64,000 bases of DNA from Halorubrum trapanicum (GTDB taxonomy: Archaea; Halobacteriota; Halobacteria; Halobacteriales; Haloferacaceae). Below are positions 8,520 to 56,153 of this stretch, piece by piece. The stretch covers positions 1,364,001 to 1,428,000 of the forward strand of contig NZ_AP017569.1 of NCBI RefSeq assembly GCF_002355655.1, written 5' to 3'. The notes under the pieces are model-generated. The model made no database searches, was not told the DNA's origin, and saw nothing but the letters and a program-made list of their open reading frames with translations. The position numbers and the translations under genes are program-made. How positions within the stretch are numbered: position 1 is the first letter of the stretch; every line of letters starts with the position of its first letter.

Positions 8520-9944
8520 TTAGTCGGCCGCTTCGACGACTTCGCGCTCGGCGTCGTCCTCGCGGTAGTGCTCCTCGATGAACTCCTCGTCGATCCGGTT
8601 GAGGGCGTCCTTCGGCAGCATCGAGAGGAGGTCCCAGCCGATCTCCAGCGTCTCCTCGATGTCGCGGTTCGTCTCGAAGCCCTGGTCGATGAACTCCGAC
8701 TCGAACGCGTCCGCGAAGTCGAGGTACTGGTTGTCCAGCTCCGACAGCGCCTCGCGACCGACGATGTTCACGAGGTCGCGGAGGTCCTCGCCCTCCGCGT
8801 ACGCCGCGAACATCTGGTCTTTCACGTCGGCGTGGTCGGCGCGGGTGAGCCCCTCGCCGATCCCGTCGTCCATCAGCCGCGACAGGCTGGGGAGGACGTT
8901 GATCGGCGGCTGGAGGCCCTGGCTGTTCAGGTCGGGGTCGACGTAGATCTGCCCTTCCGTGATGTACCCGGTCAGGTCCGGGATCGGGTGGGTGTCGTCG
9001 TCGCCCGGCATCGTGAGGATCGGGATCTGCGTGACCGAGCCGTCGCGGCCCTTGATCCGGCCGGCGCGCTCGTACAGCTGCGCCAGGTCAGTGTACATGT
9101 ACCCGGGGTACCCGCGGCGGCCGGGCACCTCCTCGCGGGCCGCCCCGATCTCGCGGAGCGCCTCGCAGTAGTTGGTCATGTCCGTCAGGATGACGAGGAC
9201 GTGGTAGTCCTTCTCGAAGGCGAGGTACTCGGCCGTCGTCAGGACCATCCGCGGCGTGACCGTCCGCTCGACGGCGGGGTCGTCCGCGAGGTTCATGAAG
9301 ACCACCGAGCGCTCCAGGGCGCCGGTGCGCTCGAAGTCCTCCATGAACTCGTTGGCCTCCTCCTGGGTGATCCCCATCGCGCCGAAGATGACGGCGAACT
9401 CGGAGCCCTCCTCGTCGTCACCGCCCTCCTCCTCTTCGGGCACGCTGGCCTGTCGCGCGATCTGCATCGCCAGCTCGCTGTGCGGCTGGCCGGAGCTGGA
9501 GAAGATCGGGAGCTTCTGCCCCCGGACGAGCGTGTTCATCCCGTCGATCGCGGAGACGCCCGTCTCGATGAACTCCTCGGGGTACTCCCGGGAGTAGGGG
9601 TTGATCGCCGCGCCGACGATGTCCTGTCGCTCCTCGGGGACGATCTCCGGGCCGTCGTCGATGGGGCGGCCCGAGCCGTCCAGCACCCGCCCGAGGAGGT
9701 CCTCGGTGACGGGCATCTTCATCGTCTCGCCCAGGAAGCGGACGGACGCGTCTCTGTCGATGCCTGAGGTGCCCTCGAAGACCTGGATCGCGACCACGTC
9801 CTCCGAGGATTCGAGCACCTGCCCGCGCAGCGTCTCCCCCTGTGCCGTCTCGATCTCGACGATCTCGTCGTAGCCGATCGCCTCGTCGACCTCGGCGTAC
9901 ACGAGGGGACCGCTGATCTCGGTGATGGTTTGATACTCTTTCAT
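8520..9944 (-). CDS. atpB: A-type ATP synthase subunit B
   Basis: A 474-aa non-catalytic nucleotide-binding subunit of the A3B3 head. Visible features are an N-terminal beta barrel ([29 protein letters not shown]), a core lacking a proper Walker A lysine loop ([21 protein letters not shown]), and the segments [23 protein letters not shown] and [20 protein letters not shown]. An acidic insert ([13 protein letters not shown], about residue 170) is typical of halophiles. It starts two bases after the atpA stop, so the two major subunits are translationally linked. Confidence 0.97.
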
Positions 9945-9946
9945 GG

Positions 9947-11710
9947 TCAGTAGAGGCTCCGGAGCTCCTCGGTGATCTCGGCTTTGAGATCCTCGACGTA
10001 CTCCTCGTAGTCCTCTTGCACGCCGATGCGGTTAATCCGCGGGGCCGACTCGATGTCGATGATCTCCTCGACCGGGACGCCGGCGTCGAGCGCGTCGAAC
10101 GCCTCGTCGTTGAACGTCTGGATCGTCGTCAGCATGAGGTACGTCTTCTCCGGGGGACAGTACGTGTCGACCGGGTGGAACGCGTTCTGCTGGAGGTACG
10201 CCTCGCGCAGGTAGCGCGCGACCTCCAGGGTGAGCTGCTGGTCGTCGGGCAGGGCGTCCTTCCCGACGAGCTGGACGATCTCCTGCAGCTCCGTCTCCTC
10301 GTCGAGCACGTCGACCGCCCACTGGCGCCGCTCGGCCCAGTCGTCGGCGACCTCCTCTTCGAACCAGGGGTCCAGCTGGTCCTTGTACAGCGAGTAGGAC
10401 TCGTTCCAGTTGATCGACGGGAAGTGGCGGCGCTCCGCCAGGTCCGCGTCGAGCGCCCAGAACGTCTTCACGATCCGCAGCGTGTTCTGGGTGACCGGCT
10501 CGGAGAAGTCGCCGCCGGGCGGCGACACCGCGCCGATCGCCGAGACGGAGCCCTCCGTCCCGTTGATGTTCTCGAAGTAGCCGGCGCGCTCGTAGAACTG
10601 CGCGAGCCGGGCGGCGAGGTACGCGGGGTACCCCTCCTCGCCGGGCATCTCCTCCAGCCGGGAGGAGATCTCGCGCATCGCCTCCGCCCACCGCGAGGTG
10701 GAGTCGGCCATCAGCGCCACGTCGTACCCCATGTCGCGGTAGTACTCGGCGATCGTGATCCCCGTGTAGATACAGGATTCACGCGCCGCGACGGGCATGT
10801 TCGAGGTGTTCGCGATGAGCGAGGTGCGGGCCATCAGCGGGTTGCCGTTGGCCGGGTCCTCGAGCTCCGGGAAGTCCTCGATGACCTCGGTCATCTCGTT
10901 GCCGCGCTCGCCGCAGCCGACGTAGACGATGATGTCCGCGTCGGCGTACTTCGCGAGCTGGTGCTGAGTGACCGTCTTCCCGGAGCCGAACGGGCCGGGA
11001 ATCGCGGCCGTCCCGCCCTTCGCGATGGGGAACAGCCCGTCGAGGATGCGCTGCCCGGACACCAGCGGCGTCCGGGGCGTCTTCTTGTCCTCCGCGGGGC
11101 GGGCCTCGCGCACCGGCCACTCTTGGTGCATCGAGACCTCCTCGCCGTTGTCGAGCTCGACGACCGTCTCGGTCACGTCGAAGCTGCCGGCCTCGGCGGC
11201 GACGACCTCGCCGCCCTCGTAGTCCGGCGGCACCATGACCTTGTGGTCGATGGTGACCGTCTCCTCGACGACCCCGACGATGTCGCCGGGCTCGACGACG
11301 TCGCCTTCCTCGACCTCGGGCTCGAACTCCCACTCCTCCTCGAGGTCGATGCCGGGCGCGTCGACCCCGCGGTCGAGGTAGGGGCTCCCCATCTTGCCCT
11401 CCAGCACGTCCAGGGGGCGCTGAACGCCGTCGTAGATGGCGTCCAGCATCCCCGGGCCGAGGTCGACCGACAGCGGCTCGCCCGTGTTCTCGACGGGTTC
11501 GCCGGGGCCGACGCCGGAGGTCTCCTCGTACACCTGAACGGTCGTGAGGTCGCCCTCGATCTCGATCACTTCCCCCATGAGCCCTTCGTCGCCGACGTAG
11601 ACGACGTCGTTCATGCGGGCGTTGAGATCGCGGGCGGTCACGACCGGACCGCTCACGCTCTGAATGACGCCGTTGTCCGTCTCGGCGTCGGTTGTGTCTG
11701 CTTTGCTCAT
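9947..11710 (-). CDS. atpA: A-type ATP synthase catalytic subunit A
   Basis: A 587-aa catalytic subunit. Walker A is GPFGSGKT (residues 239-246). The A-type non-homologous insert lies between about residues 115 and 190 ([12 protein letters not shown]). The segments [44 protein letters not shown] and [20 protein letters not shown] are diagnostic. No intein interrupts the P-loop region. It is separated by one base from atpF upstream and two from atpB downstream. Confidence 0.98.
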
Positions 11711-43612: not shown

Positions 43613-44692
43613 TCAGAGCAGGTCGTCTATCTCGTCGTTGTCGAACGCGGCCGCCGGGTCGGGCTTCTCCTCGCGCTCGTCGCGGACCGCCTGCCTGGCG
43701 CGCTCTAGGAACGCCTCCACCCGCTGCGAGCGCTCGACGCCCGCGAGGAGGACTAGGGCGGCGATCCGCTCGGAGTCGAGCGGGAAGTCCCCGCCGCGCA
43801 CCTGCATCGACCCCGTCTCCTCTTGAAGCCACTTCCGGGCCTTCTCCGCGCCCTTCCGCGAGATCCGGTCCGGATCGCCCGCGACCGCGACGAGGGCCGC
43901 ATCGGCGTCGGTGGCATTCGGTAGCGAGAGCCCGGTCATCACCGCGCTGCGGACCGCGCTCGTCACCGTGGTGACGTTCTCCTCCGCGTCCTCGGCCGCG
44001 GGCGCCGACGCGAACCCGACCGCGGCCATCCCGCCCGCGCGGAGCGTGTTGATCACCTCGCTCGTGTCGACGACGGACTCACCGACGCCCTCGACCGCCT
44101 CGCCGGCGGCCAGGATGAGCCCGATCCGCTTCGCCATCGAGGCGTTGATCGCCTCGTAGCCGCCCTCCATGGACTCCCCCGAGGAGCGCCACGCGTCGTT
44201 GTCCAACAGGATCGTCGCGTCCGCCTCGCGGACCAGCGTCTTCAGCGAGCGGCCGGCGTTCACCTGATACATCGTCCCCTCGTCGCGGCCGGGGAGGATT
44301 CCGACCGCGTAGACGGGGACGTCGTACACGCGGTTCAGCTCGCGGACGAGGACCGGCGCGCCGCCGGATCCCGTCCCGCCGCCGAGGCCGGCGACGACGA
44401 GTATCGCCTCGGCCTCCGCGGTGACCTTCGGCGCGAGCGCGTCCAACACCTCGACGGCGTCCTCGTCCATCACTTCCGCGCCCAGTTCGTTGTCGCCGCC
44501 GACGCCGTGGCCGCTGACGCGCGACTGCCCGACGAGGACCGTTTCGAGCGGGAGCGGGTCGAGGTCGGCCGCGGCCGTGTTGACGGCGAGCGCGTCGAGG
44601 ACCGCGCCGTAGCCGGCGTCGGCGTCGAACTCCGCGAGGGCGGTCGCCAGCTTGCCGCCCGCCTGTCCGACGCCGAGGAGGACTGCCTTCAT
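43613..44692 (-). CDS. cetZ: CetZ tubulin-like GTPase
   Basis: A 359-aa tubulin/FtsZ-superfamily protein of the haloarchaeal CetZ group. It shows the N-terminal GVGQAGGK (7-14), the GQSRVSGHGVGGDNELGAEV segment characteristic of CetZ, and the tubulin signature GGGTGSGG (104-111). The nucleotide-contact segment NDAWRSSGESMEGGYEAIN follows. The C-terminal domain contains RKWLQEETGSMQVRGGDFP. CetZ proteins control cell shape and motility rather than division. The closest type appears to be CetZ2-like; the paralogue assignment is uncertain. ATG 44692. Confidence 0.92.
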   Translation of the reverse strand: MKAVLLGVGQAGGKLATALAEFDADAGYGAVLDALAVNTAAADLDPLPLETVLVGQSRVSGHGVGGDNELGAEVMDEDAVEVLDALAPKVTAEAEAILVVAGLGGGTGSGGAPVLVRELNRVYDVPVYAVGILPGRDEGTMYQVNAGRSLKTLVREADATILLDNDAWRSSGESMEGGYEAINASMAKRIGLILAAGEAVEGVGESVVDTSEVINTLRAGGMAAVGFASAPAAEDAEENVTTVTSAVRSAVMTGLSLPNATDADAALVAVAGDPDRISRKGAEKARKWLQEETGSMQVRGGDFPLDSERIAALVLLAGVERSQRVEAFLERARQAVRDEREEKPDPAAAFDNDEIDDLL

Positions 44693-44766: not shown

Positions 44767-45444
44767 ATGACCGACCACGCGAAGGGGGCCGAGCCGTCGA
44801 GAACGGGAACGGAGGCGGCGCCGACGGGGGCGGAACCCGAGGCGAGGGCGAGAGAGAACGAAGGGAACGATCCGAGGGATCGGATCGAGGCCCGGCTCAG
44901 CGCGGTCGAGCGCGCGGTGACCGGGAGCGACGCGCGCCCGGCGGACGCCGCCTCGGAGGCGGAGGCGACCGCCGAGCGCGAGCGGCTCGAATCGCGGCTC
45001 GACGACCTCGAGGAGCGCGTCGCGGAGCTGGAGTCGGCGACGCAGGCGGTCCGCGGCTACGCGGGGGCGGTCAGAGCCGTCAACCGCGAGGTCGAGCGGC
45101 GGGCCGACCTCGCGCTCGCGCGGGCGACCGAGGCCGGGCGAGGAAGCGGACGGGACGGCGGTGGCGACGGGATCGGTCGAGGCGCCAGCGACGGGGGAGA
45201 TCGAGGCGCCGGCGACGGGACCGGTCGAGACGGCGAGAGCGCCGCGCCCGACCGAGGCGCGCGAGACGGGGACGGCCCCGACGGTGCGGTTCCGTCGGAG
45301 AGCGCTCTCGACGCCGCCCTGCCGGACGACCGGCCGACGTCCGGACCGCGTACCGGCGACAGCGAGCGCGCCGAGGACGGCGGAGACGGCGACGACGGCG
45401 CGTGGGCGACGGACGCGCTGGACCGGCTCCGGGAGTCGCTGTGA
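44767..45444 (+). CDS. coiled-coil protein (DUF7310-like), first gene of the pilus-like locus
   Basis: A 225-aa protein with a predicted coiled coil in the middle (about residues 35-120: RIEARLSAVERAV, ERERLESRLDDLEERVAELE, AVRAVNREVERRADL). It is flanked by a Gly/Asp-rich low-complexity linker (about 125-200) and a short conserved C-terminal helix, WATDALDRLRESL. It matches a haloarchaeal family found next to type IV pilus-like ATPase genes. There is no signal peptide. The start is ATG 44767, and the stop is eight bases before the next gene's GTG. Confidence 0.7.
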   Translation: MTDHAKGAEPSRTGTEAAPTGAEPEARARENEGNDPRDRIEARLSAVERAVTGSDARPADAASEAEATAERERLESRLDDLEERVAELESATQAVRGYAGAVRAVNREVERRADLALARATEAGRGSGRDGGGDGIGRGASDGGDRGAGDGTGRDGESAAPDRGARDGDGPDGAVPSESALDAALPDDRPTSGPRTGDSERAEDGGDGDDGAWATDALDRLRESL

Positions 45445-45451
45445 GCGGGCC

Positions 45452-45916
45452 GTGATCCGGGTGGTCCTCACCGTCCTCGTGGCGGTCGCGCTGCTGGCGG
45501 CGTCGATGCCCGCGGTCGAGACGGCCCGAACCGCGACGACGGCGGAGCGGATCGGCGCGGAGGCGGACCGGCTGGAGCGGGCGATCGGCGGCGTCGTCGC
45601 CGGGTCGACGCCCGTGAGCGACCCCGCGATGGCGGCGCAGACGACGGTCCTCCTCCGGGTTCCGACGGGGTTCGCCGCGGCGGACGTCGACCGCGTCGCG
45701 CTCGTCGAGCCGCCGGACCGACCAGACGGCGTCGCCCTCACGTATCGGATCGACGACCGCCCGGAGCGCACGCTCCGCGTCGGCACGGGGCCCGCGGAGA
45801 CGGCGGTCGACCTCGCCGGCGGACCGGTCGAACTCCGGCCGGGCGGGGCGAACCGGATTCGGATCAAATACGTCGACGACGGAGGGCCGACGGTCCGGAT
45901 CCGTCGAATTGGATAG
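45452..45916 (+). CDS. membrane-anchored protein of the pilus-like locus (DUF7311-like)
   Basis: A 154-aa protein. An N-terminal hydrophobic helix (VIRVVLTVLVAVALLAASMP, residues 1-20) is followed by a helical stretch (about 25-50) and a beta-rich, probably extracytoplasmic domain. It resembles a minor pseudopilin or pilus assembly protein in layout. The GTG start at 45452 follows the coiled-coil gene by seven bases and has no separate promoter, so the two are in one operon. Family role unknown. Confidence 0.68.
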   Translation: MIRVVLTVLVAVALLAASMPAVETARTATTAERIGAEADRLERAIGGVVAGSTPVSDPAMAAQTTVLLRVPTGFAAADVDRVALVEPPDRPDGVALTYRIDDRPERTLRVGTGPAETAVDLAGGPVELRPGGANRIRIKYVDDGGPTVRIRRIG

Positions 45917-45993
45917 ATCCGACCGGTCGGGATCCGTCGTGTCGGACAGCCCCGTTCGACAGAGGGAACCGAGAGCGGACGATCGGCCGATCG

Positions 45994-46003
45994 TTTATAT
46001 ATC
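45994..46003 (+). promoter_or_regulatory. TATA box of the pilus-like ATPase gene
   Basis: TTTATATATC, starting 30 nt before ATG 46024. The surrounding 38 bases closely resemble the promoter at 49848. Confidence 0.7.
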
Positions 46004-46023
46004 AAACCGCGGCCACGCCCGCC

Positions 46024-47964
46024 ATGAACCTCGGTCTCAGCGAGCGGATCGCCGGCGACGACGGCGAGACGCTTATCGGACGGCTTCCGTGGGTCGAAGA
46101 CGGCGGCGGCAGGTGCCGGTGCGAACCGGCGTTCCGCGAGCCCGTGGGGACTGGCGTCGAGGACCGGGTCGTCCTCGATGTCGACGCCGACGGCTGCCCC
46201 GGACGCGGCGACCTCGCCGCGAGCCCGGACTGCCTCGCGACCGTTATCGCGGCGCTCACCGACCGGGACGCGGACGTGATAAGGACTCGACACCGCGGAC
46301 GAGAGCGCTCCTACGCCGACCGGGCGGCCGACCTCCTGATCGCCGCGGGACGGTTCCGCGAGCGGATCGGCTTCCACGAAGAGCGGCTCGTCGATCGGGT
46401 CGCCCGCGATCCGCTCGGCGCGGCGGCGGAGGCGGCCGGACGCGCGAGTCCCGCGAAGCGGATCGCGACCGAGACGGGACTGCTGTCGGCCGCCGAGGAA
46501 CTCGCGGGAGACGCGGACGGAGCGGAGAGCGACCGCGACCTGAACGAGCGGCTACGGGCGCACGTCGGGCCGACGGCCGCGACCGCGCGCGTCGCGGCCG
46601 CGCCGCCGCCGGGCGCGACGCTGGCCGACCGCTGGACGGTCTCGACCGGGGCGACCGTCCGGCTCTACGAGGGCGACGAATCCCTCAGGACGTATCACCT
46701 CACGCCGCCGAGCGCCGACCTGGACGCCGAGAGCGTGGCGACGCTGGCCGCCGCGCGGGACCGGCTGCTCGGCGATCCCCGCGGCGGCGACAGGGCGCCC
46801 GGACGAGCGGTGCGGGCCGTGGCGGACGACGTCGACCCGGTCGCGGACCTGACCGAGGTCCTGCGGCGGCACACGCACGGCTACGGCGCGTTCGAACACG
46901 TCTTCGCGGACGACCGCGTGAGCGACGCGACGGTGACGGCGCCGGTCGCGGAGAACCCCCTGCGAGTGGTCCTCGACGGCGAACGGTGTCGGACGAACGT
47001 GCGGCTTCCGCCTGAGGGAGCCGCCACGCTCGCGTCCAGGCTTCGACGGGCGAGCGGGCGGGCGTTCTCGCGGGCGACGCCGACGCTCGACGCGACGATC
47101 GAGTCCGAGACCGGACGGGTCAGGGTCGCCGCCGCCACGGCACCGGCGAGCGACGGCCTCTCGTTCACCTTCCGGCGCGGCGACCCGGAGGCGTGGACGC
47201 TCGCTCGGCTGGTGTCCGTCGACACGCTCACGCCCGCGGCGGCCGGCCTGTTGTCGGTCGCCGTCGAGCGCGGCGTGACCGGGCTCGTCGCGGGGGGTCG
47301 AGCGGCCGGGAAGACGACCGCGCTCGGGGCCCTGCTGTGGGAACTTCCCTCCGAAACGCGGACGATCGCGGTCGAGGACACGCCGGAACTCCCGGTGGAC
47401 GCGCTCGCCGACGCCGGGCGGGACGCCCAGCGGCTCCGCGTCGGCGACGGCGCCGAGCTCGCGCCGGCGGACGCCGTGCGGACCGCGCTCCGCATGGGCG
47501 GCGGCGCGATGTGCGTCGGCGAGGTGCGCGGCGAGGAGGCGCAGGCGCTGTACGAGGCGATGCGGGTCGGGGCCGCCGGCGAGACGGTCCTCGGGACGAT
47601 CCACGGCGAGGACCCGGCGGCCGTCGAAGAGCGCGTCGTCACCGACCTCGGGGTCGCCCGCTCGTCGTTCGCCGCGACCGACCTGATCGCGGTTCTCGAC
47701 GACCACCGCGTCGAATCGATCGTGGAGGTCGGCGACCGCGACGACGGGGTGAGCTTCGATCCCCTCTTCGAGCGGACCGAACAGGGGCTCGTCGCGACGG
47801 GGCGGATCGACCGCGGCGAGAGCCGACTGATCGAGGACCTCGCGGAGGCGAGCGAGTCGTACGCCGCGGTTCGAGAGGCCGTCGACCGGCGGAGCGACCG
47901 AATCCGCGACGCGGTTCGAACGGGACGGACCGCGCCGACGCGGTACGCGGGAGGCGACCGATGA
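46024..47964 (+). CDS. type II/IV secretion system ATPase (PilB/TadA/VirB11-like)
   Basis: A 646-aa secretion/pilus ATPase. The N-terminal third is haloarchaea-specific, with a CRCEPAF segment. The core holds TEVLRRHTHGYGAFEHVFADD, Walker A GGRAAGKTT, the acidic Asp box VEDTPELPV, and the Walker B/His region GGAMCVGEVRGEEAQALYEAM and ETVLGTIHGEDP. It should power assembly of a pilus-like structure or export at the inner face of the membrane. Its stop overlaps the next gene (ATGA). It has its own TATA box. Confidence 0.9.
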   Translation: MNLGLSERIAGDDGETLIGRLPWVEDGGGRCRCEPAFREPVGTGVEDRVVLDVDADGCPGRGDLAASPDCLATVIAALTDRDADVIRTRHRGRERSYADRAADLLIAAGRFRERIGFHEERLVDRVARDPLGAAAEAAGRASPAKRIATETGLLSAAEELAGDADGAESDRDLNERLRAHVGPTAATARVAAAPPPGATLADRWTVSTGATVRLYEGDESLRTYHLTPPSADLDAESVATLAAARDRLLGDPRGGDRAPGRAVRAVADDVDPVADLTEVLRRHTHGYGAFEHVFADDRVSDATVTAPVAENPLRVVLDGERCRTNVRLPPEGAATLASRLRRASGRAFSRATPTLDATIESETGRVRVAAATAPASDGLSFTFRRGDPEAWTLARLVSVDTLTPAAAGLLSVAVERGVTGLVAGGRAAGKTTALGALLWELPSETRTIAVEDTPELPVDALADAGRDAQRLRVGDGAELAPADAVRTALRMGGGAMCVGEVRGEEAQALYEAMRVGAAGETVLGTIHGEDPAAVEERVVTDLGVARSSFAATDLIAVLDDHRVESIVEVGDRDDGVSFDPLFERTEQGLVATGRIDRGESRLIEDLAEASESYAAVREAVDRRSDRIRDAVRTGRTAPTRYAGGDR

Positions 47965-49793
47965 CGGAGCGTCGGCCGACCGCGTCCGACGGGCCCCTCC
48001 GCTCCGCCGGCGACGACGAATCAGACGTTTCGGAGGAGCTGCGCCGGGCGGTCGCGTTCCTCGGGTGGGACGCCTCCGCAGAGCGCGTCGTGGCCGTCGG
48101 GTATCGGGTCGGGATCGTCACGGGTGCGGTCGTCACCGTCGTCTCGGCGCTCGTCGCCGGCGCGGTCGCCGCCGCGCCCGCGGGACTGGCCGCCTTCGTC
48201 GGCGGAGCACACGCGGTCCACCGTGCGCCGGTGTGGCTCGCGTCGCTCCGGCGGACGCGGGCGCTCGGCGCAGCGCCGGGACTCGTCGGGCGGCTCGTGT
48301 TGCGAATGCGGCTGGACCCCTCGACCGAGCGGGCGGTGCGGTTCGCCGGCCGGACGGGGGACGGACCGCTGGCCGCGGCGCTCGCCCGCCACGAGCGGGG
48401 GAGCGCGGACGGACCGACGAGCGGCCTCCGGGCGTTCGCCCGCGAGTGGCGGCCCTGGTTCCCGGCGATCGACCGCGCCGCGGCGCTGGTCCGGACGGCG
48501 GCGACCGCGCCGCCGGAGCGTCGCGGGCGGTGTCTGGACCGCGCGCTCGACGCGACGCTCTCCGGAACGACGGACCGACTCGCGTCGTTCGTCGGGGCGG
48601 TTCGGGGACCGGTCTCCGCGCTGTACGCGTTCGGCGTGCTGCTCCCGCTGGCGCTCATCGCGCTGCTTCCCGCGGGCGCCGCCGCCGGCGTCGCCATCGG
48701 TCCCGGGCTCGTCGCCGGCCTGTACCTCGTCGCGCTTCCCGCCGGACTGCTGGCCGCCTCGGCGTGGCTGCTCTTCCGGCGACCGGTCGCGTTCCCGCCG
48801 CCGGAAATCGGCGGCGACCACCCGGACGTGCCGGACCGGCGCGGCCGCGCGCTCGTCGTCGGGTGCGCCCTCGGAGCGGCGGCGGCCGTCGTCGCCGCGC
48901 GGACGGTCGCGCCGTGGGCGCGGCCGGTCGCGGGGGTCGGCGTCGGCGTCGGGAGCGCGCTGTTCGTCCTCGCGCGACCTCGTCGGGCGGTGTTATCGGA
49001 CGTGCGCGACGTCGAGCGAGGGCTCCCGGACGCGATGACCGTGATCGGCGGCGACGTGGCGGAGGGCGTGGCGGTCGAGACCGCGGTCGCGAACGCCGGC
49101 GAGCGGCTGGACGGCGCGACCGGCGAGCTGTTCGAGCGCGCCGGACGGCGGAGCGACACGCTGCGGGTCGGCGTCCGCGAGGCGTTCTTAGGACAGGGCG
49201 GACCGGCGACCGCCGTCCCGTCGCCCCGCCTCCGTGGCGCGATAGCGCTGCTCGCCGTCGCCGCGCGTGAGGGTCGGCCGGCCGGCGACGTCCTGCTGGA
49301 GCTCGCGGACCAGCTGGAGTCGCTGCGCGAGCTCGAACGCGACGCGCGCCGCCAGCTGGCGACCGTCACGGGGACGCTCTCGAACACCGCCGCGGTGTTC
49401 GCGCCGCTCGTCGGCGGGGCGACCGTCGCGCTCGCGACGGGGATCGACGCCGTCGACGTCGGCGGTCTCGGCGCCGGGGCGGCCGCGGGCGCCGACGCCC
49501 TCGCCGGCGGCGGAGTCGGCGCGGAGGGCGGAGCGACCGCCGGCGCCGGCGGTGCGGCCGGCGGGAGCGGCGCGGCCGGGACGAACGGCGGTGCGGGAAC
49601 CCTGTCGGTCCCGGTCCTCGGACGGATCGTCGGGACGTACGTGCTGCTGCTCGCCGCACTCCTCACCGGGCTCGCGACCGGCCTGGAGCGAGGGTTCGAC
49701 CGGACGCTGGTGGCGTATCGGATCGGCATCGCGCTGCCGACGGCCACCGCGACGTTCCTCGTCGCGTTCGCCGGCGCCGGGCTCCTGTTTTGA
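47961..49793 (+). CDS. type II secretion system F/TadC-like membrane protein
   Basis: A 610-aa membrane platform protein. Two T2SSF-type modules are visible (helical stretches around residues 95-200 and 350-470), with hydrophobic helices at about 45-80, 225-275, 300-345, 480-500 and 555-610. The segment RGLPDAMTVIGGDVAEGVAVETAVANAGE is typical of the second module. A Gly/Ala low-complexity insert lies at about 505-550. It pairs with the upstream ATPase, sharing a four-base overlap, as in archaeal PilB-PilC systems. Confidence 0.88.
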   Translation: MTERRPTASDGPLRSAGDDESDVSEELRRAVAFLGWDASAERVVAVGYRVGIVTGAVVTVVSALVAGAVAAAPAGLAAFVGGAHAVHRAPVWLASLRRTRALGAAPGLVGRLVLRMRLDPSTERAVRFAGRTGDGPLAAALARHERGSADGPTSGLRAFAREWRPWFPAIDRAAALVRTAATAPPERRGRCLDRALDATLSGTTDRLASFVGAVRGPVSALYAFGVLLPLALIALLPAGAAAGVAIGPGLVAGLYLVALPAGLLAASAWLLFRRPVAFPPPEIGGDHPDVPDRRGRALVVGCALGAAAAVVAARTVAPWARPVAGVGVGVGSALFVLARPRRAVLSDVRDVERGLPDAMTVIGGDVAEGVAVETAVANAGERLDGATGELFERAGRRSDTLRVGVREAFLGQGGPATAVPSPRLRGAIALLAVAAREGRPAGDVLLELADQLESLRELERDARRQLATVTGTLSNTAAVFAPLVGGATVALATGIDAVDVGGLGAGAAAGADALAGGGVGAEGGATAGAGGAAGGSGAAGTNGGAGTLSVPVLGRIVGTYVLLLAALLTGLATGLERGFDRTLVAYRIGIALPTATATFLVAFAGAGLLF

Positions 49794-49847
49794 AATCGGA
49801 CGGCGGGGGAACGAGGTCCCGTTCGGACCCGACCTCCGCGCCGATCA

Positions 49848-49857
49848 TTTATATACC
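49848..49857 (+). promoter_or_regulatory. TATA box of the DUF7283-DUF7286 genes
   Basis: TTTATATACC, starting 30 nt before ATG 49878. Nearly the same 38-base context (CGATC, box, CAAGCCGCG) occurs before the ATPase gene at 45994. Confidence 0.7.
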
Positions 49858-49877
49858 AAGCCGCGCCCAGCCGCGCC

Positions 49878-50378
49878 ATGTTCGAGACGCACCTCGACGC
49901 CACGTACGCGTGGCTCGGTCTGGCCGTCGTGAGCGTCGCGGCCGTCGGCGTGGCCGCATCGTTTCCGGCCTCGCCGCCGCCGGACGCCGACGGCGTGGCG
50001 CGCACGATCGATTCGGTCGCGGACGGGGAGTACCCGGCGACGGCCGAACACGGCATCACCGCGGAGAGGCTCCGGCTCGCGGAGGGATCCGTCTCGCTCG
50101 GCGACGATCGGGAGACGGCGCGGGCGACGCTCGACGCCCCGCGGATTACGCCGGTGATCCGGCCGGACGCGGGGATGACGCCGAACGCGACGACCGACCC
50201 GCGGCTTCGGCGCGTCCTCGACGGCGCTCCCCCGGACGCCGCGTTCGACGATCCGGCGGCGTTCGCGGCGGCGGCCGAGCGCGCGCGAGCGGCGGACGCG
50301 GCGTGGATGCCCGCACCGGAGCGGGTCACGGTTCGACGGGTCCACTACGGAGGCGTCCGCGTCACGCTCGTGGGGTGA
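49878..50378 (+). CDS. N-terminally anchored protein (DUF7283-like)
   Basis: A 166-aa protein with one N-terminal membrane helix (Y10-S28: YAWLGLAVVSVAAVGVAAS). The extracytoplasmic-type domain that follows is rich in charged residues and ends in a short beta-rich segment, RVTVRRVHYGGVRVTLVG. It belongs to a set of four consecutive genes with the same anchor-plus-domain plan. It has its own TATA box and is followed six bases later by the next gene. Function unknown; a minor pilin or assembly role is inferred from position. Confidence 0.72.
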   Translation: MFETHLDATYAWLGLAVVSVAAVGVAASFPASPPPDADGVARTIDSVADGEYPATAEHGITAERLRLAEGSVSLGDDRETARATLDAPRITPVIRPDAGMTPNATTDPRLRRVLDGAPPDAAFDDPAAFAAAAERARAADAAWMPAPERVTVRRVHYGGVRVTLVG

Positions 50379-50384
50379 TCTCGC

Positions 50385-50858
50385 GTGTCACACGACTCCG
50401 TGAAACCAGACGGACCGGAAACGTCGGGGGCGTCGAAGCGGCCTGCTGCGGCGCTCTCGACCGCCGACCGCGCCGCCGTCGAACCGACCGCCGCGCTCGT
50501 CGCGGTAGTGGTCGTCGGACTCGCGCTGGGGCTGTACGCCGGCGCGTTCGCGGACGCGGCGCCCGACGACGATCGGTCGGCCGCGAGGGCGGCGCTCGAC
50601 CGCGTCGAGGAGGCGATCACCGTCGGCGGCGTCGTCGACCCCGCGCGGATGCGACGAGTGGAAGCGCCGGGGACCGCGACCGCGATCGAACTGGAGGCGG
50701 GCGGCGAGCGGTGGCTGGCGGCGTCGGGCCCGGACGCTCCCGGACCGCCGGAGGTCCGGTCGCCGGACGCGGTCGCGGTCGCCGAGCGGCGGGTGACGGT
50801 CCGCGTGGCGCCGGGCCGAAACGTCCGCGGGACGCTCCGGGCGGTGGTGTGGCGGTGA
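50385..50858 (+). CDS. pilin-like protein (DUF7285-like)
   Basis: A 157-aa protein. A polar leader of about 30 residues precedes RAAVEPTAALVAVVVVGLAL, which matches the archaeal class III signal layout: basic residue plus Ala, then a short polar stretch and a hydrophobic helix (35-55). A prepilin peptidase could cut after R29-A30. The rest is a small beta-rich domain. The GTG start at 50385 is six bases after the previous stop, and its TGA overlaps the next GTG. Confidence 0.7.
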   Translation: MSHDSVKPDGPETSGASKRPAAALSTADRAAVEPTAALVAVVVVGLALGLYAGAFADAAPDDDRSAARAALDRVEEAITVGGVVDPARMRRVEAPGTATAIELEAGGERWLAASGPDAPGPPEVRSPDAVAVAERRVTVRVAPGRNVRGTLRAVVWR

Positions 50859-51508
50859 CCAGCACCGTCCTCGACGTGACCGTGCTGCTGCTTTGCGTCT
50901 CCGCGAGCGTCGTCGGGCTCGGCGCGAGCGACGCCGGCGGCCCCGACGGCCCGACCGCGACCGACGCCGCGGACCGGCTCGTCACCGAGACCGCGACCGT
51001 TTCGTACTCCGACGAGGACGCGCCGAACGGCACGCGTCGCGTCCACGCGACCCGCGCGGAGCTGCTCGCACTGGTCGCCGTCCGGGACGCGGAGGGCGCG
51101 TTCGACCGCAGGGCCGTCGAGGCAGTCCGCGCGGGAGTCGGTCCGCGGACGCGCGTCGACGTAACGGTCCGACGCGGCGGCGAGAGCGACGCAGACGACA
51201 TCGTCGTCGGCCCGGGACACGGCGGATCGCAGGGACCGCCCGGCGCTCCGAGGGCCCGGGGCGTGGCGGCGGTGTCTCCGCACTCGATCGCCGGCGAGGC
51301 GGTTCCGTTGCGGAGGAGCGGCGGGCGGGGCCGAGCGGCCGACGCGACCGAATCCGGGGTAGCAGTCGCTGTCGGCCCCGAACCGCCGCGAAACGCCGAC
51401 GTCGCCGTCGCCGTGGTCCGACAACCGGTTCCGGACCGGTTCGACGGCGAACAGGGATCGCATCGCTCGGCGGAAGGCGTCGTTCGGATCGTCGTCCGGA
51501 GGTGGTGA
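50855..51508 (+). CDS. N-terminally anchored protein (DUF7284-like)
   Basis: A 217-aa protein with an N-terminal hydrophobic helix (about residues 5-25: VLDVTVLLLCVSASVVGLGA). The segment TATVSYSDEDAPNGTRRVHA and a long region of strands and turns follow. The GTG start at 50855 overlaps the previous stop by four bases; the stop overlaps the next GTG. No catalytic motif is seen. Position and layout make it a component of the same cell-surface machine. Confidence 0.7.
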   Translation: MTSTVLDVTVLLLCVSASVVGLGASDAGGPDGPTATDAADRLVTETATVSYSDEDAPNGTRRVHATRAELLALVAVRDAEGAFDRRAVEAVRAGVGPRTRVDVTVRRGGESDADDIVVGPGHGGSQGPPGAPRARGVAAVSPHSIAGEAVPLRRSGGRGRAADATESGVAVAVGPEPPRNADVAVAVVRQPVPDRFDGEQGSHRSAEGVVRIVVRRW

Positions 51509-54500
51509 GCGTGGGGGATCGAGATTGCGGCCAGTCCGCGGACACGGGTCGCGCACGGACGTTCACCGTCGACGAACGGGCGCGCGTCCCCTTCGCGCTC
51601 GTCGGCGTGCTGTTGCTCGTGACGAGTTCGGCGTACGCCGCGGGGCTCGCTGAGCAGGGGCTCGTCGGCGAGGACCGCCGCGTCGAACGCGCGGTCGAGC
51701 GCGTCGACGCCGACGCCACCGCCGCGCTCAGGAGCGCGGCCCGCGAGGCCGCCCACGACGCGGCGAGAGAGCCAGTGACGCGCGCGCCGAACGGATCGGG
51801 GCCCGGAACCCGGGCGGTCCGCGAGGGGTCCGCCTTCGAGGACGCGTTCCGAGTCCGGCTCGCTATCGCGGGGGCGGAGGCGCTGCGCGCGGTCGAGAGC
51901 GACGTCGGCGGCGCCGAGGCGAACGCGTCGCTGCCGGCGGTCGACTCGGCCGCCGACCTCGTCGCGGCGCGCGAGCGGGTCAGCGTCGAACCGACCGCGA
52001 ACGGGACCGCGACGCGGGTCACCTTCGCGGGCGTCGCGACGACCGCGACGCGGGAGGGCCGAACGGTCGTGAACCGGACGCGGTCGCGGACGGTCACGGT
52101 CGCCGTGCCGACCCTGGCCGCCCACGAACGGACCGAGCGGTTCGAGCGTCGACTCGACCGCGGACCCGTCGAGGGGCCCGGGCTCGGTCGACAGGTCACC
52201 GCCAGCCTCTACGCGATGGCATGGGCCCGGGGGTACGGCCAGTACGCCGGCGCTCCCGTCGAGAACGTCGTCGCGAACCGCCACGTCGAGCTGTCGACGA
52301 ACGCCGGGATCGTCCGCGTCCAGCGGGACGTGTTCGGGACCAGCGACCCCGACGCGCGCGGCGGCGTCGCGCGGGCGGCCGCGCGGACCGGCGTGACCGA
52401 CCTGCTGTCGCCGACCGGCGTCCCCGAGGCCGCCTGGACGGACGCCGTCCTCGGAGCGCCGACGCCGACGGGGACGGGGGACGGCGAGGGGGGAAACACG
52501 GCCTCGACCGGGGACGCGACGGCGAGCGAGGACGCCGCCTTCGACCCGGCCGCGGACGCGACGAGCGAGACCGCGTCGGTCGAGGTCGGGCACGCGGCCG
52601 ACCGGGCCGCTACGCGCGTCCACGACGGCCTCGAATCGATCGTTCGGGCGAGCCACCGCGTCGAGGCGACCGCGGAGACGGAGACGACCCGGGTGGCCGA
52701 CGGCGGCCCCGTGACGCCGGACCGCCCCCGATCGCTGCTCGACGAACCGTGGGAACGGGTCGACGCGTCGCGGACGGAGCGCGTCCGCGTGGTCGACGGG
52801 AGCGACCTCCGAACGGGGACCGACGGCGAGACGGTGTCGGCCGGTGAATCCGTGTCGTTCGGCGGCGCGACCCGGGAGGTCGTCGTCGAGCGCGCCGCGA
52901 CCGCGACGTGGGAGCGGCGAGTCGTCGAGCGGGGGCCGAACGGGACGGTACAGAACGTGAGCGTCGACCGCGCCGTGACGACCGACGAGGCGACGGACCG
53001 GTACCGCGTCCGCGTGTCGGTGACCGGGACGTACGCGCCGCGCACCGGCGCGCCCGACAGGCCGACGGGGACGTTCGGCGCCGCCGAGGGCGTCGACGGC
53101 CCGGACCTCGCGGACACTCCGGCGGCCGCGCGGGCGGAACTCGACGTCGAGACCGACGGCGACATCGACCGGCTGGCGCGCGAGGCGGTCGAACGGGGCG
53201 ACGAGACGCGGTCGACGGTCGTGTACGGCGAGCGGTCGGACGCCGACCTGGACCGGATCGCGAGGGACGTCTCGGAGCTGTCGGAGCGCGTCCGCGAGAT
53301 CGAGACCGAGGCGTCGATGGCGGACGCCGCCGTCGGCGAGTCGACGCCGTACCGCGACCTCGCCGCGACCGTGCGGGACCGCCGGAACGCGCTCCGCGAC
53401 GCTCCGCCGAGGTACGACGGCGCGGTCGACCGGGGACGCGTCGCCGCCCGCGTCGCGTACCTCGACGCCGTGATCGCGGAGCTCGAAGCGGCCTCCGAAG
53501 ACAGAGAGGCGGCGACCGAGGGCGTGCTCGACCGCGTGAACGACGCGTTCGGCGGGCCACCCGTCGGCGAGGTGATCGCCAGCCGCGAGGCCGCCCGCGA
53601 CCCGGGGACCTACAGCGTCGGCGACGAGGGGCCGGGCGGCGCCGTCACGTTCGCGCCGGAGGGGTCGCCGGGGTACCTCCCGCGGACGGCGGTCGACGGG
53701 GAACGCGTCGATGGCGTCGACGGCACGACGACGCGACCGCTCGTAACCCGGAACGTGAACTACGTCACGCTCCCGTACAGCGACGTCGCCGGCGGGATCG
53801 CCGACCGGATCCTCGGCACCGACGACACGGTCCGTCTCGGCGTCGCCGGACGGTCGCTCCTCGCGGCCGACGAGGCGCTCGCGGCGGCCGACGACGACGA
53901 TCTGCGCGCCGACCGACGCGCGCTCGCCGGGCGGGTCGACGCCTCGCTCGACCGGGTCGACGAAGCGCTGGCGGACCGGCTCGCGGAGCGGACCGATCTC
54001 TCGCGCGAGGAGCGGAACGAGGTGTTGGAGGACGCCGCGGCCGAGTACGACTCGCTCGGCCACAGGGCCGTCGCGGTCGGCGACGGCGAGTACCCGGATC
54101 GCGTCGCGAGCGAGGCGGCCCGGGTCGGGTCCCTTTCGTCGTCGGAGCGGCTCGGGCTCGCCGCGCACCTCCGCGTCGAGACGCGGAGGGAAGCGGGACG
54201 GAACGCGGTCCGCGTTCCGGCCCGGTTCGTCGACGAGACGACGGCCGCGTCCCGCGCGATCCGCCGGAAGCAGGTCGAGTCGGCGATCGAGGGCCGCGCG
54301 AAGGAGGCGGTCGCGTCGGTGCCGGACGAGCGCGTGCCGAAGCCCGTCCGGACCGTCGGGGCGGGACTTCCGGTCGCGCCCGTTCCCGGGTACTGGGTGG
54401 CGACGGTCAACGCGTGGAACGTGGAGGTGCGCGGGGAGTATCCCCGGTTCGCCCTCCGCGCGAACGTCGGGACGCCCGATCGCCCGTTCGAGTACGTCCG

Positions 54501-54726
54501 AGAGCCCGGCACGGTCAGCGTCGATGTGGACGGCGAGTCGGTCGCGCTCGGGGTGACGGAGCCGGTCGCGTTCGAGACCCGGACGGTCGTCGTCGTCGCC
54601 GTCCCCGCCGGGCCGCCGGGCGTCGGCGACGTCGGCGGGACGCGCGACGAGCGGTCGAGCGGCTGGCCGTGTCCGGGCCCGCTGGGCGCGTCGCCGGGAG
54701 CGGCCGACGAGTGTACGGGGCCGTGA
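51505..54726 (+). CDS. very large N-terminally anchored surface protein (DUF7286-like)
   Basis: A 1073-aa protein, the largest of the locus. After a 27-residue leader, DERARVPFALVGVLLLVTSSAY forms a pilin-like N-terminal helix (about 25-48) with a possible prepilin peptidase site after R25-A26. The body is long, acidic and mostly helical, with repeated coiled-coil-like stretches (RIARDVSELSERVREIETEA and similar). It contains TMAWARGY-like and NVEVRGEYPRFALRAN segments. It may form a stalk or adhesin. The GTG start at 51505 overlaps the previous stop. Confidence 0.75.
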   Translation: MSVGDRDCGQSADTGRARTFTVDERARVPFALVGVLLLVTSSAYAAGLAEQGLVGEDRRVERAVERVDADATAALRSAAREAAHDAAREPVTRAPNGSGPGTRAVREGSAFEDAFRVRLAIAGAEALRAVESDVGGAEANASLPAVDSAADLVAARERVSVEPTANGTATRVTFAGVATTATREGRTVVNRTRSRTVTVAVPTLAAHERTERFERRLDRGPVEGPGLGRQVTASLYAMAWARGYGQYAGAPVENVVANRHVELSTNAGIVRVQRDVFGTSDPDARGGVARAAARTGVTDLLSPTGVPEAAWTDAVLGAPTPTGTGDGEGGNTASTGDATASEDAAFDPAADATSETASVEVGHAADRAATRVHDGLESIVRASHRVEATAETETTRVADGGPVTPDRPRSLLDEPWERVDASRTERVRVVDGSDLRTGTDGETVSAGESVSFGGATREVVVERAATATWERRVVERGPNGTVQNVSVDRAVTTDEATDRYRVRVSVTGTYAPRTGAPDRPTGTFGAAEGVDGPDLADTPAAARAELDVETDGDIDRLAREAVERGDETRSTVVYGERSDADLDRIARDVSELSERVREIETEASMADAAVGESTPYRDLAATVRDRRNALRDAPPRYDGAVDRGRVAARVAYLDAVIAELEAASEDREAATEGVLDRVNDAFGGPPVGEVIASREAARDPGTYSVGDEGPGGAVTFAPEGSPGYLPRTAVDGERVDGVDGTTTRPLVTRNVNYVTLPYSDVAGGIADRILGTDDTVRLGVAGRSLLAADEALAAADDDDLRADRRALAGRVDASLDRVDEALADRLAERTDLSREERNEVLEDAAAEYDSLGHRAVAVGDGEYPDRVASEAARVGSLSSSERLGLAAHLRVETRREAGRNAVRVPARFVDETTAASRAIRRKQVESAIEGRAKEAVASVPDERVPKPVRTVGAGLPVAPVPGYWVATVNAWNVEVRGEYPRFALRANVGTPDRPFEYVREPGTVSVDVDGESVALGVTEPVAFETRTVVVVAVPAGPPGVGDVGGTRDERSSGWPCPGPLGASPGAADECTGP

Positions 54727-54801: not shown

Positions 54802-55254
54802 ATGTTCCACGAGGTCGTCGACGGCCGCGGAGCCGGACCCGACGTCGACGCCGACGAGCCGGCGGCGGCGGATCTGCTCGCCGCCTTCGAAGCGATGGTA
54901 ACGGAGGCGGCGGCGGCGATCGACACCGACCGGCTCGTCGACGAGATCGGACTGTCCGAGGCGGACGCGAGCGCCGCCCGCGACGGGGACGTCGCCGCGC
55001 TCTCGCTCGCGGACGGGGCGGCCGTCCTCGCGGCGGCGAACCCGGACCGCGACGCCGACGCGATGGTGGCGGAGGTGCGCGACCACCTGCTGATGGGGAT
55101 GGCGACCGCCGTCCTCGACGTCGACGCCATCGCGGCGAAGATCGACGCCGACCTCACCGGCCAGGAGGTTCAGCAGGCGCTGGAGGGGCGGACCGCGATG
55201 ACGCTCGGCCAGCTCGCCGAGATCCTCGCGGTCATCGAGCGCCGGAAGCCATGA
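54802..55254 (+). CDS. DUF5791 family protein
   Basis: A 150-aa acidic, helical protein with conserved segments typical of haloarchaeal DUF5791: LLAAFEAMVTEAAAAIDTDRL, LSLADGAAVLAAANPDRDADAMVAEVRDHLLMGM, and DLTGQEVQQALEGRTAMTLGQLAEI. It is soluble, with no known role. The stop overlaps the start of the next gene by four bases (ATGA), so it is co-translated with the epimerase-like gene. Confidence 0.85.
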   Translation: MFHEVVDGRGAGPDVDADEPAAADLLAAFEAMVTEAAAAIDTDRLVDEIGLSEADASAARDGDVAALSLADGAAVLAAANPDRDADAMVAEVRDHLLMGMATAVLDVDAIAAKIDADLTGQEVQQALEGRTAMTLGQLAEILAVIERRKP

Positions 55255-56153
55255 GGGTCGTCGTCGTCGGCTGCGGCTACGTCGGGCTGACGCTGGCGGA
55301 GCAGCTCGCCGAACGCGGCCACGACGTCACCGGCGTCCGGCGGTCCGACGACGGGCTCGACGCGGTCGACGCCGTCGGTCCCGACGTCGAGGCCGTCCGG
55401 GCTGACGCGACCGATCCGGAGTCGCTCTCGACGCTCCCGGACGCGGACGCGGTCGTCTTCGCGGCCAGTTCCGGTGGACGGGGCGCCGACGCGGCGCGGG
55501 AAGTATACGTCGACGGGCTCGCGAACGTCGTCGACGAGTACGGTTCGCGGTCCTCGCCGCCGGATCGGCTGGTGTACACCTCCTCGACCGGCGTGTACGG
55601 CGACCACGACGGCGGCTGGGTCGACGAGGAGACGCCGGTCGATCCGACCACGGAGAAGACCCGGGTCCTCGCCGAGGCCGAACGGATCGCGACCGAGCGC
55701 GCGGGCGACGCCGGAATAGACGGGACCGTGGTCCGGTTCGCGGGGCTGTACGGCCCGGACCGGTACCGGCTGGAGCGCTACGTGGAGGGGCCGGTGACGG
55801 CCGGCTACCTGAACATGGTCCACCGCGCGGACGCCGCGGGGTCGATCCGACACCTCCTAGAGACGGATCGCGCTCGCGACCGCGTCGTCCTCGTCGTCGA
55901 CGACGAACCGGTCGACAAGCACGCGTTCGCCGACTGGCTCGCCGACGCCTGCGGCGTCCAGCGGCCGGAGAAGCTGTCGAAGGACGAGCGGATCGCGGCC
56001 GGCGACCTCTCCGCGGCCGCCGAGCGCCGTATTCGAACGAGCAAGCGGTGTTCGAACGCGCTGCTCCGCGAGCTGGGCTACGAGTTCGTCCACCCGACGT
56101 TCCGGTCGGGGTACCGCGACGCCGTGCGCGCGTACCGGGCGCGGACCGAGTAG
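55251..56153 (+). CDS. NAD(P)-dependent epimerase/SDR family protein
   Basis: A 300-aa extended SDR protein. The N-terminal dinucleotide motif is VVVGCGYVGLTLAEQLAERG. The strand VVFAASS follows, and the SDR active-site region contains YTSSTGVYGDHDG. VVRFAGLYGPDR and YLNMVHRADAAGSIRHLL match the YeeZ/complex I NDUFA9-like subgroup. Substrate unknown. ATG 55251 overlaps the upstream DUF5791 stop. Confidence 0.88.
   Translation: MRVVVVGCGYVGLTLAEQLAERGHDVTGVRRSDDGLDAVDAVGPDVEAVRADATDPESLSTLPDADAVVFAASSGGRGADAAREVYVDGLANVVDEYGSRSSPPDRLVYTSSTGVYGDHDGGWVDEETPVDPTTEKTRVLAEAERIATERAGDAGIDGTVVRFAGLYGPDRYRLERYVEGPVTAGYLNMVHRADAAGSIRHLLETDRARDRVVLVVDDEPVDKHAFADWLADACGVQRPEKLSKDERIAAGDLSAAAERRIRTSKRCSNALLRELGYEFVHPTFRSGYRDAVRAYRARTE

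Follow-up and report, generated by a model that had tools for sequence, protein, structure and literature searches.

What kind of machine is encoded where a predicted secretion-type ATPase and a membrane platform are co-encoded with four anchored proteins (DUF7283, DUF7285, DUF7284, and DUF7286), the last of them 1073 residues long? The locus that raises this question comprises eight collinear genes at positions 44767–54726 of the window, by which we mean the whole 64,000-nucleotide stretch analyzed, and is part of a contig 2.84 Mb long from a Halorubrum chromosome. A first-pass annotation, made from the sequence alone, proposed a distinct surface machine. Its pilus- or secretion-like character stands, as does its difference from the PilA/PilB3 operon, but the system is not an unrecognized one: it matches the haloarchaeal system already described (PMC4858521, PMC9856176, PMC4292770) as pilB2-C2, subclade 4F T4P, or pil-2. 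Our main reading, to which we give a probability of about 75%, is a pilB2-C2 (subclade 4F) type IV pilus (T4P) operon beside cetZ2, with DUF7285, DUF7284, and DUF7286 as a minor-pilin tip or priming complex.

Pfam searches recovered every gene type that the annotation had listed, from the coiled-coil and membrane-anchored proteins through the PilB- and PilC-type genes to the four genes downstream, and the last product is indeed far larger than a pilin (table 1). For the operon's DUF proteins, NCBIfam returned no models. All genes except PilC score above their Pfam cut-offs and the order is kept across the Halobacteria, which places the locus far beyond chance. Four-base overlaps (ATGA or GTGA) at the pilB/pilC, DUF7285/DUF7284, and DUF7284/DUF7286 junctions indicate that these genes are probably translationally coupled. 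The closest relatives of the locus are other Halorubrum loci, with identities up to 92%.

Table 1. Genes of the locus and its flanks, in window positions.
Feature	Coordinates	Strand	Evidence and remarks
CetZ2 tubulin-like gene	43613..44689	-	Pfam CetZ_C and Tubulin; divergent, directly upstream of DUF7310
DUF7310 coiled-coil protein	44767..45444	+	PF23991, E 1.2e-27
DUF7311, leaderless hydrophobic N-terminal anchor, then a long, probably helical stretch	45452..45916	+	PF23993, E 2.4e-38; N-termini compared in 58 loci
PilB2-type VirB11/GspE ATPase (T2SSE), N-terminal Cys motif	46024..47964	+	PF00437, E 2.2e-17
PilC2/TadC-type membrane protein	47961..49793	+	T2SSF weak, E 0.0034; ATGA overlap with pilB
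DUF7283 pilin-like anchor, class III site lacking	49878..50378	+	PF23954, E 9.9e-50
DUF7285 minor-pilin-like protein, site RA/AVEP	50385..50858	+	PF23956, E 6.5e-28
DUF7284 pilin-like protein, leader lost, ORF begins at mature N-terminus (TSTVLD)	50855..51508	+	PF23955, E 3.9e-11
DUF7286 1073-aa surface protein, pilin-type anchor, site RA/RVPFALVG	51505..54726	+	PF23957, 1095.6 bits
DUF5791 (probably arCOG04674)	54802..55254	+	PF19104; usual downstream neighbor
NAD-dependent epimerase-like gene (probably arCOG03095)	55251..56153	+	usual neighbor; identity suggested by synteny with the regulon in PMC9856176

The ATPase scores 63.2 bits against PF00437 (cut-off 24.9) and carries cysteines at positions 31, 33, 58, and 70 of its N-terminus; these columns are occupied in 53–54 of 54–55 loci. 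PilC remains under the T2SSF cut-off (17.8 bits vs. 25.2), and its position and overlap with pilB fit a TadC/PilC partner; all loci with an identified PilB have the PilC gene next to it. The product of the divergent gene directly upstream is closest to PDB structure 4b45 (503 bits, vs. 315 bits for 4b46), which we take to be CetZ2 and CetZ1, respectively, so that the ftsZ-like neighbor of the 4F T4P is present. Its coiled-coil partner (arCOG07564) is matched, by family description, by DUF7310.

The system is widespread in haloarchaea, next to a cytoskeletal tubulin-like gene. Of the 194 Halobacteria genomes sampled, 151 (50 of 65 genera) have DUF7286 and 147 have DUF7283. In a synteny sample of 40 loci, each from a different genus, 30 contain all eight genes in order; among these complete loci CetZ lies divergent directly upstream in 21, DUF5791 follows in 27, and the epimerase comes after DUF5791 in 24. 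In some loci the pilin-like genes are present although PilB or PilC is missing, suggesting that the assembly proteins may act in trans.

The N-termini of the anchored proteins, compared over about 65 loci, separate two groups. DUF7285 and DUF7286 both carry a class III signal, that is, a basic residue and G/A just ahead of a hydrophobic helix, and both prepilin peptidase sites that the annotation had picked out (RAAVEP and RARVPF) are supported by their conservation. The DUF7286 site, R[AG]/RVPFAL or of R[AG]xVPFA type, is present in 63 of 65 loci, the two exceptions being an interrupted gene (L059) and a variant RAMVPLA (L068). DUF7285 has a strict R[AG]xxEP in 52 of 64 loci, with R6, E10, and P11 invariant in the alignment; the remaining loci mostly keep a basic and a small residue, and the proline at the same spacing. 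No recognizable class III site was seen in DUF7283 or DUF7311 across the loci compared, where the hydrophobic helix begins at once. It should be noted that the latter, encoded ahead of the ATPase, brings the number of anchored proteins to five, where the annotation had counted the four after PilC, and that the short leader ascribed to all four of those holds for DUF7285 and DUF7286 but neither for DUF7283 nor for the DUF7284 of the window. Ordinary anchors removed by signal peptidase I, which would speak against a pilus, are unlikely for DUF7285 and DUF7286 given their near-invariant charged class III sites; for DUF7283 and DUF7311 the comparison offers no such counter-argument.

A different history is apparent for DUF7284. 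In the other families (f2–f10) the site R[AG]/ISTVVD occurs in 27 of 27 loci, and in all 12 genera of the family to which the window belongs (f1) the leader is gone and the reading frame starts at the mature end. In the window a GTG start overlaps the DUF7285 stop and the protein continues with TSTVLD directly after the start codon; this aligns with the mature I-S-T-V-V-D end in other families, and the mature start resembles the DDRA/VSPVIG of PilA from the same genome. If real, a pilin-like protein made without a leader would depart from prepilin processing in an unusual way; our literature search on leaderless pilins returned nothing relevant.

Neither a prepilin peptidase nor a major pilin is encoded within the locus, as the annotation had observed, but this does not extend to the genome, which contains one A24 prepilin peptidase gene (C1:2067961) and four Pilin_N genes outside the locus, two of plain PilA type with DDRAVSPVIG. 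Haloarchaeal T4P loci normally lack a peptidase and a major pilin of their own. The 4F T4P has been described as having its own major pilin of the PilA family (arCOG02981 or arCOG10216), whose gene often stands alone; two of the four Pilin_N genes are PilA-like, and they do not tell which one serves the pilB2-C2 system.

Structural modeling of DUF7286 from 25 aligned sequences with AlphaFold2 gave a poor model (mean pLDDT 62, pTM 0.36), for which Foldseek returned no PDB match at E <= 0.001 and the best VIA-align hit (SecDF, Z 5.6) is not meaningful. The DUF7285 model (pLDDT 76) consists of a helix and four strands; its best PDB matches lack specificity (Z 6–7), being a Bacillus subtilis domain and chains of the ribosomal protein S3 type, and no pilin is among them, an absence that proves nothing. 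Profile comparison of DUF7286 with DUF7285 detected no relation, and our literature search found no mention of DUF7286. In several loci DUF7286 is missing about 200 internal residues (profile positions 719–915) with its neighbors retained, as expected for a variable distal part.

Outside the Halobacteria, a phylum-wide search detected DUF7286 relatives of ~1000–1400 residues, chiefly in two families (f12 and f18) and matching mostly through the C-terminal third, with the caveat that the control Methanosarcina acetivorans also matches. Three f18 genomes (L111–L113) keep the order DUF7285, DUF7284, DUF7286, and no PilB was seen near the triad; in L113, the genome whose proteins were read, the motifs are RGVTEP, DGYSTIID, and GARVPFAV, respectively. 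Tentatively, DUF7285-7284-7286 could be an ancient minor-pilin tip module of the Halobacteriota, whose tip subunit is a pilin of ~1000–1400 residues and whose DUF7284 has in the Halorubrum family become leaderless, translated from the mature N-terminus and bypassing the prepilin peptidase; we regard this combined proposal as less likely than not.

In the mechanism that we propose, PibD, encoded elsewhere, would trim DUF7285 and DUF7286, and in most other families also DUF7284. PilB2 and PilC2 would then extrude the trimmed proteins together with DUF7283 and possibly DUF7311. The triad DUF7285-7284-7286 would serve as a tip or priming complex of minor pilins, DUF7286 with its ~1000 residues being the exposed distal part, and any shaft would consist of a PilA-type pilin whose gene lies elsewhere. 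On the cytoplasmic side, control or placement would fall to the DUF7310 coiled coil and CetZ2. The operon would probably serve attachment to surfaces or other cells.

The same genes could instead form a short pseudopilus resembling that of a type II secretion system (T2SS), in which PilB2 and PilC2 drive a DUF7286-capped piston of minor pilins that secretes a substrate across the S-layer without any long filament. Such a device would account for an operon without a major pilin and for the occurrence of the triad apart from PilB in other lineages, and one pilin-type protein of very large size accompanied by two smaller ones is reminiscent of GspI/J/K (PMC6211770). We consider it unlikely, as neither a substrate nor an exit pore was seen to be co-encoded, the genome offers PilA-type pilins in trans, and the fold searches, weak as they are, gave no GspI/J/K match.

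Another possibility is that the operon builds a pilus in which DUF7286 takes no part, the protein being a static S-layer-associated one held by its N-terminal helix; in earlier work, one protein of the system is labeled S-layer-like or a predicted surface protein (PMC4858521, PMC9856176). The near-invariance of its class III site argues against this, as does its company: DUF7286 stays with DUF7284 and nearly always with DUF7285, even where PilB and PilC are missing, and in three genomes outside the Halobacteria. We rate a static protein as distinctly improbable. Very improbable to us is the view that many hosts carry a degenerate operon or one that is of little use to them: pilC2 carries an in-frame stop in Halobacterium salinarum R1 and pilB2 is interrupted in strain NRC-1 (PMC4292770), most of the operon is lost in Halorubrum coriense, and two f2 genomes have large deletions, but most sampled genomes keep DUF7286 with near-invariant motifs and the operon of the window is intact. 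The H. salinarum lesions and the H. coriense loss indicate that the operon is dispensable. This counts against our main reading, as do the DUF7285 model with its lack of a pilin match and the poor, unmatched DUF7286 model. With a conserved pilin-type site on DUF7286 in place of a plain surface anchor, the tip-complex model becomes testable in Haloferax volcanii.

Compared with the PilA/PilB3-C3 adhesion pili of Haloferax, the system shares the T4P logic and PibD-processed pilins; the PilB3 operon contains no pilin genes, whereas four pilin-like genes follow pilC in the window. The proposed likeness to the T2SS lies in small pilins with one far larger pilin at the tip, the place of GspK in the GspI/J/K minor pseudopilin complex (PMC6211770). 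No sequence or fold match to these was found in our searches, and DUF7286 is several times larger; the tip comparison, neither backed nor refuted by the fold searches, is offered as an analogy only. Haloarchaea are not known to have an outer membrane, so that no secretin is expected in the system of the window.

Among the haloarchaeal descriptions, Losensky et al. (2014) reported for H. salinarum R1 that pilB2, pilC2, and downstream genes of pil-2, a locus restricted to haloarchaea, are co-transcribed and include three prepilins predicted by FlaFind, and that pilB2 transcripts are raised in adherent cells relative to flaI (PMC4292770). The pilC2 that is broken in R1 is intact in the window. 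No report of a filament made by the pilB2-C2 locus was found in our literature search. In the account of Brown and Duggin (2023), cetZ2 adjoins the pilB2/C2 regulon, and an epimerase and a putative transcription factor are nearby, an arrangement that fits the window; the available text lists one predicted surface protein and no giant pilin, and does not analyze N-termini (PMC9856176).

The closest correspondence is with the halobacterial 4F T4P of Makarova, Koonin and Albers (2016), described with a VirB11-family ATPase with a Cys-rich N-terminus, a cognate TadC, a coiled-coil protein, an ftsZ-like neighbor, several pilins, and a large surface protein (PMC4858521). The gene content fits that of the window, where the TadC counterpart is a weak match, and the assignment to 4F is by description, arCOG numbers and clade included; Legerme (2019) placed the Haloferax PilB2 in subclade 4C, in contrast to the 4F of the coiled-coil/ftsZ description. 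No basic difference separates the two systems, except that in the window the large protein is itself seen to carry a conserved class III site. Beyond what was known, our analysis thus adds this pilin site on the giant DUF7286, the old DUF7285-7284-7286 triad, and a leaderless DUF7284.

About 200 internal residues (profile positions 719-915) are absent from the giant protein DUF7286 of loci L092, L095, L103-L106, L108, L121 and L122, some of which lack PilB/PilC. Two loci of genome G354 (L114 and L115) encode proteins of 235-311 aa which match the DUF7286 profile in parts only, at about 576-715 and 914-1018; the DUF7286 C-terminal region may also occur as a separate pilin-like family.

In Halorubrum coriense (L065), the operon is mostly deleted, and an in-frame fusion links the initial portion of the coiled-coil protein DUF7310 with the final portion of DUF7286; the flanking CetZ2, DUF5791 and epimerase genes are retained. 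This deletion and fusion may be an assembly error. In two genomes of family f2, DUF7286 is reduced to its C-terminal quarter, and one of them (G066) still has DUF7310; these remnants look like losses, with end points resembling those of L065. At two loci from metagenome assemblies, DUF7286 is spread across at least two frames, reflecting either real frameshifts or sequencing errors.

Coordinates of the reduced, split and leaderless genes
Feature	Locus or genome	Family	Coordinates
Operon deletion with fusion	L065		9725-10621
DUF7286 remnant	G066 (L107)	f2	8858-10927
DUF7286 remnant	G012	f2	C1:2158541-2159317
Split DUF7286	L059		6741-10026
Split DUF7286	L064		8874-12769
Leaderless DUF7284	window	f1	50855-51508

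In the window's family, the pilin-like DUF7284 starts without a leader, whereas a class III site is present in all loci of other families (27/27); the leaderless form is possibly a pilin independent of prepilin peptidase.
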